Assembly (NCBI RefSeq): GCF_021654775.1
Contig: NZ_AP025343.1
Span: 4,865,501 to 4,929,500, forward strand
Source: Paenibacillus azoreducens
Lineage (GTDB): Bacteria; Bacillota; Bacilli; Paenibacillales; Paenibacillaceae
Reading direction: 5' to 3'
Length of the DNA stretch: 64,000 nucleotides
Below are positions 5,565-59,962 of this stretch, one piece after another. The notes below the pieces were generated by a model. It was given only the letters and a program-made list of their open reading frames with translations, ran no database searches and was not told the origin of the DNA. Position 1 is the first letter of the stretch. Each line of letters begins with the position of its first letter. The position numbers and the translations under genes are program-made.

Positions 5565-5805
5565 CCCCGCAAAGTAATCGGAGTCAACTTCGAAGGCCAC
5601 ACGTCACTCAGTACTTTTGCTCCGCAAAAGCGCCCCTCTTCGAGAGGCGTCGGACGTCTTTCCGATACTCTCAGTACTTTTGCTCCGCAAAAGCGCCCCT
5701 CTTCGAGAGGCGTCGGACGTCTTTCCGATACTCTCAGTACTTTTGCTCCGCAAAAGCGCCCCTCTTCGAGAGGCGTCGGACGTCTTTCCGATACTCTTTG
5801 TGGGG
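5565..5805 (-). repeat. Family A element, copy 3, with core expanded to three 63-bp units
   Basis: CCCCGCAAAG and CTTTGTGGGG ends enclose 241 bp. The twin-hairpin core is present three times in exact tandem, starting at 5607, 5670 and 5733 (period 63). Because 63 is a multiple of three, several frames stay open across it, but these are not genes. Confidence 0.9.
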
Positions 5806-39762: not shown

Positions 39763-39934
39763 CCCCGCAAAGTGTATCGGAAAGAAGTCCGACGCCTGAA
39801 GGGCGCTTTTGCAAAGCAAAAGTACTGAGTGGATCGGAAAGAAGTAAGGACGCCTCTCACAGAGGGGCGCTTTTGCGAAGCAAAAGTACTGAGTGCAGCC
39901 TGTGCTTCGATGCTTACTTCAAATACTTTGCGGG
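39763..39934 (+). repeat. Family A element, copy 6, with two core units
   Basis: CCCCGCAAAG to CTTTGCGGG, 172 bp. The core appears twice (about 39775-39830 and 39834-39895), the first with a shortened hairpin. It lies upstream of the dipeptidase gene. Confidence 0.85.
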
Positions 39935-58000: not shown

Positions 58001-58326
58001 TAAGAAAAACGTCTATCGACGTACTCTCATAGAAGACAGACCGCGTTTAGCGGTAATTTTTCTTGCGATATAAGGATGCGAGATCTCCGAAGTTTATACT
58101 TTCTTATATCTTAAGAAAAACGTCTATCGACGTACTCTCATAGAAGACAGACCGCGTTTAGCGGTAATTTTTCTTGCGATATAAGGATGCGAGATCTCCG
58201 AAGTTTATACTTTCTTATATCTTAAGAAAAACGTCTATCGACGTACTCTCATAGAAGACAGACCGCATTTAGCGGTAATTTTTCTTGCGATATAAGGATG
58301 CGAGATCTCCGAAGTTTATACTTTCT
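58001..58326 (+). repeat. Family B tandem array, three 111-bp units, last one interrupted
   Basis: Units start at 58001, 58112 and 58223 with near-identical sequence. Each has an ACGTC/GACGT hairpin, an ACCGC/GCGGT hairpin and a GATATAAG...CTTATATC stem. The third is cut at 58326 by the IS110 element and resumes at 59885 (TATATCTTAAG). Confidence 0.92.
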
Positions 58327-58428
58327 GCCCTGAAAATTATCAGCTCGTAGTATCGTTAGAAAAGCCGTTTTTGGCAATACGAAACTAACCCCAGTAACTT
58401 GCTTTTTTAAAAAATGGGTTTGAACCGC

Positions 58429-59649
58429 TTAAGCCGTTTGTTCTTGAATGCTGACTGTAAGTCCAAGGGACTCTAGTCTCTTAATCGAGTTGTTAATCAA
58501 GATGTCACGCTTTCGCTTATCAAAGTAATCAAAGCCAAGCTCCACATATTCTTGTTTTCGCGTTAACAAGATATGTACGATCGTTAGAATGGTATGTCCT
58601 ACGGCGACTGCGGCTCTATTTTTTCCGCGTCGTGCAGCAATACGATGATACTGGGCTGCCAGGTACGAATTTTTTTTACGTGTCACCGCCCGCGCCGCCT
58701 CAGTTAGGGCACTTCGCAGTTTTTTGTTTCCTTTTCGTGTTTTGGCTGACCTTTTCTTCCCCGCGCTTTCATCGTGACCTGGAGTCATCCCTGCCCAGGA
58801 ACATAAATGGCCAGGGGTTGGAAACCGCGACATGTCCGTACCGATCTCTGCCAAGATTTGTTCGGCAGTTCGTTTACCGACACCGGGGATCGAATCCAAT
58901 AACTTCAGGTCCTCAGCAAAAGGGGCCATACGTTTATCGATCTCTGTATCCAATTCGGTGATCAATTCGTTCAGATAATCGATATGGGCGAGCTGCTTCT
59001 CGATCATGAGCAGTTGATGAGGGCCAAGTCGCCCTTCCAGCGCCAGTTTCAACTGTTCTTTCTTCAGCTTTAGTTTCTTTTGGGCGAAATCGGCCAAGAC
59101 AGAAACATCGGTTTCACCGTTAATTATGGCTCCCAACATGTTTCGTCCGGAAACCCCGAGTACGTTGGAAGCGACTGAGGATAGCTTGATGTTGCCGCCT
59201 TCGAGCACCTTTTGAAGCCGATTCGCTTCACGCGTTCGTTCTTCAATAATGCTTCGCCGGTAACGAATCACCTCTCGCAGTTCCCTTTGATCTCGGTCCG
59301 GAATATAGCTTCCTTGCACCAAACCATGCCGCAGCAGCTTGGCAATCCATTCAGCATCCTTGACATCCGTTTTACGTCCAGGGACAGATTTAATATGTTG
59401 CGCATTCACGACCATGGGCTTGAGTTCTTCCAATTCCAACAGGTTATATATCGGTTTCCAGTAGTCTCCGGTGCTTTCCATCGCGACATGGGTGCAACGG
59501 TGTTGTTTGACCCAGTCTACCAATTCAATCAGGTTTCGGGTCATTGTAGCAAATGTTCGAATCTCCTTTCCTTGAGGGGTGATAATGCAGGCGGTGATGC
59601 TCTTCTTGTGAACATCCAGACCGCAGCAACGTTCGATTAACACTTCCAT
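58429..59649 (-). CDS. IS110-family recombinase (DEDD transposase)
   Basis: A 406-residue recombinase. The N-terminal RuvC-like DEDD domain has CGLDVHKKSI (first Asp), VAMESTGDYWKP (Glu) and RKTDVKDAEWIAKLL (last Asps). A coiled-coil middle follows. The C-terminal transposase_20 domain has LLDSIPGVGKRTAEQILAEIG and GMTPGHDESAGKKRSAKTRKGNKKLR, which holds the Ser nucleophile region. Length is normal and no stop or frameshift is seen, so it could be active. GGAGAAG precedes the ATG at 59649. It would act with the RNA encoded just upstream. Confidence 0.96.
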   Translation of the reverse strand: MEVLIERCCGLDVHKKSITACIITPQGKEIRTFATMTRNLIELVDWVKQHRCTHVAMESTGDYWKPIYNLLELEELKPMVVNAQHIKSVPGRKTDVKDAEWIAKLLRHGLVQGSYIPDRDQRELREVIRYRRSIIEERTREANRLQKVLEGGNIKLSSVASNVLGVSGRNMLGAIINGETDVSVLADFAQKKLKLKKEQLKLALEGRLGPHQLLMIEKQLAHIDYLNELITELDTEIDKRMAPFAEDLKLLDSIPGVGKRTAEQILAEIGTDMSRFPTPGHLCSWAGMTPGHDESAGKKRSAKTRKGNKKLRSALTEAARAVTRKKNSYLAAQYHRIAARRGKNRAAVAVGHTILTIVHILLTRKQEYVELGFDYFDKRKRDILINNSIKRLESLGLTVSIQEQTA

Positions 59650-59699
59650 ACGTACTTCTCCTTACGACTGGGTGATTTTAAGGCTGGTGCAACTACCAA

Positions 59700-59880
59700 A
59701 AAGGGTTATTCTGCCCTGCGTGCTTCCCGAAGGAGCAACAATCTGCGATGCACCGGGTCGTTGTGGTCCGTCTTATATACGGGTTCGAGACACCAAGAAA
59801 GTACGACCTACCTTCGCCAGCCATAGTAGCAGTATGGACAAAATTTTCATCCATCAGTGGTGCCGCGAAGCGGCATGGAA
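59700..59880 (-). ncRNA. Predicted IS110 bridge RNA
   Basis: In the left-end non-coding region, read on the minus strand: TACTTTCTT (59803-59795) equals the left half-target plus core; ATATAAGA (59778-59771) is the complement of the right half-target; GGTC/GACC (59765-59768, 59805-59808) can close this loop. Further 3', the complement of the IS right end (TTCTGCCCTG, 58323-58332) recurs at 59709-59718, with GGAAG nearby matching the left end. The order of target loop then donor loop is that of known bridge RNAs. Exact ends are not determined. Confidence 0.65.
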
Positions 59881-59897
59881 GTCTTATATCTTAAGAG

Positions 59898-59942
59898 AAA
59901 ACGGGCAGCTTGGGATTTAACCAATCCCTCGCTGCCCGTTTT
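59898..59942. terminator. Terminator of ftsK
   Basis: AAAACGGGCAGC pairs perfectly with GCTGCCCGTTTT; A/T runs flank both sides. The B-array remnant TATATCTTAAG directly abuts its left arm. Confidence 0.85.
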
Positions 59943-59962
59943 TTATGTTCCTCCGTTGCATT

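Follow-up and report, generated by a model that had tools for sequence, protein, structure and literature searches.

A predicted upstream bridge RNA with its guides in reverse order relative to IS621 in an IS110-family element of Paenibacillus azoreducens

Bridge recombinases are under development as programmable insertion tools. Among the closest described systems, IS621 (PMC11208160, PMC11208158) has a bridge RNA 5′ of the gene with a target loop and a donor loop, a DEDD recombinase, a dinucleotide core and a target that is a repeated palindromic sequence. PMC11187229 gives opposite guide orders for IS1111 elements, whose RNA is encoded downstream of the gene, and for one IS110 element, ISEc21, whose RNA is encoded upstream, and also notes exceptions in the position of the RNA region.

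The element described here shares all of the listed features of IS621, its bridge RNA being a prediction. Its guides, however, do not follow the IS621 order. We assign a probability of roughly 0.7 to the reading that the IS110 branch with long recombinases (about 400-450 aa), to which it belongs, has a third bridge-RNA architecture. In this architecture, the RNA is 5′ as in IS621, both loops are reversed (the target loop as in IS1111), the core is AG or AA, and some members are re-programmed against the right ends of other IS110 elements.

The stretch of DNA that we analysed, called the window, comprises 64,000 nucleotides of contig NZ_AP025343.1. On its minus strand, it contains an element of 1,556 bp between two copies of an AG core (58327..59882), whose ends were derived by comparing genomic copies mutually and with intact repeat units. 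The recombinase (58429..59649, minus strand) has 406 aa and contains the DEDD_Tnp_IS110 and Transposase_20 domains (Pfam PF01548, E 3.6e-38; PF02371, E 2.1e-25). It scores 289.7 bits, against a cut-off of 140, with the NCBIfam model NF033542, “IS110 family RNA-guided transposase”, and can be aligned with the IS621 protein of PDB 8wt6, with the D, E, D and D positions and the serine in place. The DEDD RuvC-like domain and the Transposase_20 domain characterize the IS110 family in the broad sense, as does a structured RNA in a non-coding end with target and donor guides; judged by sequence, such an RNA is present here, with one donor guide not found. We take the aligned D, E, D, D and serine residues to be the catalytic ones.

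The element splits one unit of a 111-bp tandem repeat (58001..58326; 2.9 copies, 99% matches), namely the next unit after two intact sites. The intact target, TACTTTCTTATATCTTAAGA, is found at 58097-58116 and 58208-58227, where 0 occurrences are expected in shuffles; as the first-pass annotation stated, the target is known from the neighbouring intact units. The repeat is partly palindromic and has at least 57 matches genome-wide. Uninterrupted, the 13-mer TACTTTCTTATAT has 41 exact genomic sites, compared with 2 for a reversed control pattern. An Rfam search yielded no bridge RNA match, and its sole hit was a sub-threshold match to a miRNA family on the target repeat. By eye, a T-run resembling the tail of a transcription terminator often occurs just before target sites (left flanks of L004, L006, L032, L033 and L064-L066). 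A second dispersed repeat family with a 63-bp unit (CTCAGTACTTTTGCTCC...) occurs in the window at 5607-5797 and 39771-39895 in opposite orientations, and a similar stretch adjoins the element copy L005.

A DNA search of the host genome found seven full or nearly full copies of the element, and comparison of these shows that the AG core is common to both junctions. The left flank, consisting of the target half ATATA and the core AG (59883..59889, minus strand), is the same (...ATATAAG) in all seven. The right flank, consisting of the core AG and the target half AAAGTA (58319..58326, minus strand), is AGAAAGTA in five copies and has one mismatch in the other two. Given that the flanks beyond these common words differ between copies (e.g., L004, L005 and L006), the common words represent the target. 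When scored against the fixed guide described below, 7/7 full-length or nearly full-length copies are inserted at guide-matching sites, so the first-pass annotation's refuting condition of copies at unrelated sites did not arise. Based on sequence, we consider it very probable that this is an active-looking IS110-family element whose site is chosen by a bridge RNA encoded 5′ of the recombinase.

Other traces of the element are present in the host genome. A decayed copy (L009, about 1480-1610) consists of ~60 nt of the left end joined straight to the target repeat; it has no gene, RNA or right end, and its left flank is the same as in full copies. Further candidate left-end fragments, also short, are at L008, L010 and two other places. 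Near the core, the left end has a hairpin, CATGCCGC...GCGGCA (59861..59877, minus strand), and the arrangement core-N5-CATG recurs in relatives, where it served as a search anchor. An 8-nt inverted repeat near the ends is unequally placed: TGAAAATT (59842-59849) lies 33-40 nt inside the left end and AATTTTCA (58331-58338) 4-11 nt inside the right end. Relatives contain similar words.

The predicted bridge RNA core (59682..59822; all features of the RNA are on the minus strand) has a closing stem, GGCTGG/CCAGCC, and two stem-loops. It is derived from an alignment of 30 sequences (A1), its consensus fold and pair counts, and from the covariance model R1 that was built from these 30 RNAs. The predicted target-binding loop (59765..59808) is closed by GGTC/GACC and contains two candidate guides. 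The 5′ target guide, TACTTTCTT (59795..59803), contains TACTTTCT, the complement of the flank at the right end, AGAAAGTA, with the core included. The 3′ target guide, ATATAAGA (59771..59778), has the same sequence as the flank at the left end together with the core. The predicted donor-binding loop (59691..59762) has a stem, AACGACC/GGTAGTT, and an inner hairpin, GCTCC/GGAAGC, which are helices 4 and 5 of the pair counts. Its putative donor guide, CAGGGCAGAA (59709..59718), is identical to a 10-mer at the right end of the element, including the core (58323-58332), as the first-pass annotation had observed for its second loop. The half matched by this guide is the right end CAGGGC plus the core AG (58325..58332), as defined by the copies and the sequence match. 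A fourth guide, for the left donor, was not found, and a column-by-column search gave scattered weak signals only.

We compared these matches with those arising when the non-coding region (221 nt) was put through 20,000 dinucleotide shuffles. The 8-nt match to the left flank was obtained 123 times, the 9-nt match to the right flank 77 times and a 10-nt donor match five times. Both target matches were never obtained jointly, so their joint occurrence is not due to chance. This result and the sites of the seven copies uphold the earlier proposal that the guides of the target loop match the actual insertion site.

A two-loop fold conserved in relatives, which had been named as a check, was recovered by RNAalifold, with the same five helices that we had drawn and one pair shifted. 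In the 30 sequences, 12 of the 26 pairs of the shared fold have two-sided changes, 96.8% of cells are paired, and none of 500 shuffles had pair counts as high on any of five measures. The GGTC/GACC helix at the ends of the target loop, already noticed in the first reading, is kept in 99.2% of cells. Given that it has no two-sided changes, this helix is conserved, not proven by covariation. In the consensus fold, one target guide lies on each side of the first internal loop, and the 3′ side of the second loop holds the donor guide. The fold of the single sequence is no better than that of shuffles (z +1.47). A sigma-70 promoter scan of 59640-59960 gave no match, and a search of the host genome for orphan RNAs with the covariance model, in which 150 of 911 candidates were scored, found the seven known copies only.

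It could be argued that the matches are relics at the level of DNA, i.e., captured pieces of the flanks or repeats shared with the host, and that there is no guide RNA. Such relics would be consistent with the fact that the 3′ guide directly repeats the left flank and with the weak fold of the lone sequence. However, the guides occupy fixed places in a two-loop fold supported by the above two-sided changes, the 5′ guide corresponds to the far flank in complementary form instead of copying its neighbour, and the guide columns vary in the relatives' alignment while the adjacent scaffold columns AGGTCG, TGGT and AGCAC are conserved. We therefore regard this alternative as extremely improbable, and continue to treat the matches as guides.

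On the gene strand of the window's element, the guide complementary to the right flank comes first (5′), and the one identical to the left flank comes second (3′). The real IS621 copies L141 and L142 show the converse on their own gene strand: their 5′ guide, ATCGGGCCT, agrees with the left flank (ATCAGGC-CT in L141), and their 3′ guide, GTAG, is complementary to the right flank (CT-AC). Thus, the window's element has the opposite of the order found in IS621 and ISEc21, and the core on its recombinase strand, as well as in its copies, is AG and not the CT of these types. The first-pass annotation had correctly located two guide stretches that match the target, but on the recombinase strand the 9-nt stretch complements the right flank and the 8-nt stretch equals the left flank. 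The IS621-type order and the CT core that it reported apply only to the strand opposite the recombinase.

To measure guide-flank agreement beyond one genome, we used relatives. A search within the genus had matches in 31 of 100 genomes, including the window's own. From a scan of genome contigs, which gave 509 relatives, the best 80 were kept. There were 111 oriented loci (110 and the window), of which 80 passed our anchor rules and 31 were dropped because of a missing guide or end anchor, a contig end or a distant relationship. Three further rows were left out (L031 and L034 as duplicates, L137 for a wrong right-end anchor), which left 70 unique combinations and 46 unique guide pairs. The RNA is upstream of the recombinase gene in the window and in the 80 loci that passed the rules. 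The searches for relatives and for the held-out set below were anchored on the core AG and the end motifs, whose constancy there arises by construction.

The 3′ guide agrees with the left flank at 5.41 of 8 positions in the 46 guide pairs, compared with 2.83 when permuted (z 13.9), and the 5′ guide agrees with the right flank at 3.54 of 6 positions, compared with 1.89 (z 9.4). The donor guide agrees with the right end at 5.83 of 6 positions (z 12.1). None of 5,000 permutations reached the observed guide-flank or donor matches. When permutation was confined to groups of relatives, z is 11.3 for the left flank (8 nt), 7.0 for the right flank (4 core-proximal nt) and 10.1 for the donor. All five core-proximal bases of the 3′ guide match the left flank in 35/46 pairs versus 10% of mismatched pairings, and at least three of four core-proximal bases of the 5′ guide match the right flank in 33/46 versus 17%. 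Exceptions number 11 for the left flank and 13 for the right flank. The right-flank match is loose, with 4 of the 46 pairs matching at 0/4 core-proximal bases.

The IS621 order gains no support in the same 46 guide pairs, with z -0.5 and -1.9. We initially considered a bridge RNA of the usual IS621 type, in which the guide for the left flank comes first, given that the order of left guide, right guide and donor loop on the plus strand and the core CT resemble IS621. This candidate was dropped on the basis of the permutation tests, where on the gene strand the reverse order reaches z 13.9 and 9.4, and of the IS621 control loci, which show the other order. We now consider it highly improbable, and retain the reversed order.

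For a held-out set, R1 was searched against 398 genomes sampled from the phylum, with matches in 47, including the window's own. We read 29 loci, of which 13 passed the rules and gave 11 new guide pairs; the other 16 were dropped (nine for lack of guide anchors and seven because the end motif was missing or the contig was cut). In these 11 pairs, the left flank reaches z 5.9 and the right flank z 2.8, with 29 of 5,000 permutations as high in the latter case. The IS621 order has z -0.2 and 2.9. The second of these values, in which the second guide complements the right flank, was reached in 17 of 5,000 permutations and compares with z -1.9 in the 46 pairs. This alternative pairing speaks against a clean reading in the small held-out set.

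Some copies of single elements depart from their guides or change together with them. One element has six copies in Paenibacillus sp. HW567 (L066-L070 and L072), with a constant left flank, ATATAAG, and varied right flanks, five of six of which depart from the 5′ guide. It seems that right-side recognition is looser in this element or that the guide has drifted. Among six copies within a single genome, G007 (L156-L161), the right flank matches the 5′ guide in four, and two (L157 and L160) have a mismatch. In L161, which is one of the four, the 5′ guide is GCCTTT in place of GCATTT, and the right flank is AAAGGC in place of AAATGC; its 3′ guide is also changed, with a matching left flank.

In four loci (L073, L074, L091 and L122; 4/70 unique combinations and 4/46 guide pairs), the six core-proximal letters of the left-target guide are the same as the donor guide of a different member, and the left flanks resemble an IS110 right end (TTTTC-N5-AG). 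Another recombinase, 66% identical, is upstream at L091, and none was found at the other three. The sequences suggest that re-programming has directed these four members at the right ends of other IS110 elements as insertion sites.

More distantly, we considered six multi-copy groups that are 39-48% identical, two of which (G066 and G085) bear nearly the same element. By eye, their 3′ guide resembles the left flank. Their core was read as AA, although runs of A leave some doubt. A longest-match rule applied to 11 copies from five of the distant groups called nine right-first and two left-first; the left-first calls are based on matches of 4 nt and 6 nt, and one right-first call (L164) on 4 nt only. 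A second IS110 family of the host genome (L167-L171; five copies, 46% identical, core read as AA) has a 3′ guide, TTAGAA(TC), that matches the left flank. A similar repeat of the left flank occurs in the RNA region of ISArsp3, of a Caballeronia element and of a Peribacillus element. At E up to 1, R1 had matches at 10 of the 31 distant or control loci; the right-first relatives that it failed to match include L145, L147, L156 and L183.

In a recombinase tree, the window's group of 28 rows has support 99/99 and is apart from IS621-type and IS1111-type rows; the tree has a midpoint root only and flagged long branches, and the distant groups fall inside the 28-row group. One row, “LeptoPiv”, was wrongly labelled as the window family through its name, which touches the label count and not the tree. 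The relatives covered suggest that reversed loops hold across a clade of recombinases of about 400-450 aa.

The guide order of this clade, with the top-strand complement preceding the bottom-strand match, is that of the IS1111 group. In PMC11187229, this order is given for the seekRNAs of IS4321, IS5075 and other IS1111-group elements, and by eye we see it in IS4321 (L186), where the right-flank complement AAAACGGAA comes first and the RNA is downstream of the gene. We therefore weighed an IS1111-group element whose RNA has moved to the 5′ side, a reading that the 8-nt inverted repeat near the ends might favour. However, the offsets of this repeat are unlike the 7 bp/3 bp given for IS1111 in PMC11187229, the window's recombinase belongs to a clade apart from IS4321, IS5075 and their relatives, and R1 has no match at the IS4321 or IS5075 loci. 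The candidate was dropped on the basis of the recombinase tree and R1, and we judge it very unlikely.

The most likely explanation, on our analysis, is that RNA and recombinase act as in IS621 (PMC11208160, PMC11208158), with the cassette turned relative to the polarity of recombination. The recombinase would bind the bridge RNA and pair it with both target strands, as judged from the IS110 family; in a circular intermediate, the RNA would also pair with the right end. Strands would presumably be exchanged at the AG/CT core, which would leave the left end beside ATATA-AG and the right end beside AG-AAAGTA. Given that both loops are reversed in terms of the recombinase strand, the cassette of RNA and recombinase would be opposite to that of IS621 relative to recombination polarity. 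With guides in reverse order, a machine of this kind would place its cargo in the opposite orientation.

In the open-licence PMC text that was covered (including passages of PMC11208160, PMC11187229, PMC11208158, PMC12045711 and PMC12500396), we found no statement of an upstream RNA combined with the IS1111 guide order. If our reading is correct, the position of the RNA and the polarity of recombination are separable in evolution, and a rule based only on IS621 predicts the wrong insertion orientation for the long-recombinase branch. For this clade, insertion with a polarity opposite to that of IS621 is a directly testable prediction. The clade also contributes many naturally re-programmed pairs of guide and target (46 collected and 11 held out).

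Finally, we compare the element with individual known systems. Unlike IS621, it has the right-end guide on the 3′ and not the 5′ side of the donor loop, a gene-strand core of AG (AA as read in distant relatives) in place of CT, and a recombinase of 406 aa in place of 326. The clade adds an RNA model, R1, that matches neither the IS621 loci L141 and L142 nor the IS4321 and IS5075 loci tested. The element resembles ISEc21 in having its guide RNA in the upstream non-coding region, but ISEc21 is reported in PMC11187229 to have the bottom-strand match 5′ of the top-strand match, while in the window the top-strand complement comes first. By contrast, it shares this guide order with IS4321, IS5075 and the IS1111 group, whose RNA is downstream of the gene, not upstream as here. 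It lacks the downstream RNA of that group, and its recombinase is outside the IS1111 clade, the IS4321/IS5075-type recombinase being ~22% identical and in another clade. The clade separates RNA position from guide order, two features that are coupled in the elements tested in PMC11187229.

Among named elements, ISArsp3 of Arthrobacter, an IS110-like element with 45% identity, has an RNA-region word, AAGTGAGTTT, that equals its left flank, and this region has a weak R1 match (E 0.076). It differs in its diverged sequence and other target, and it was read from a single copy with ends placed by eye. Judging by the protein length given in PMC11187229, the founding IS110 may belong to the same clade as the window's element.
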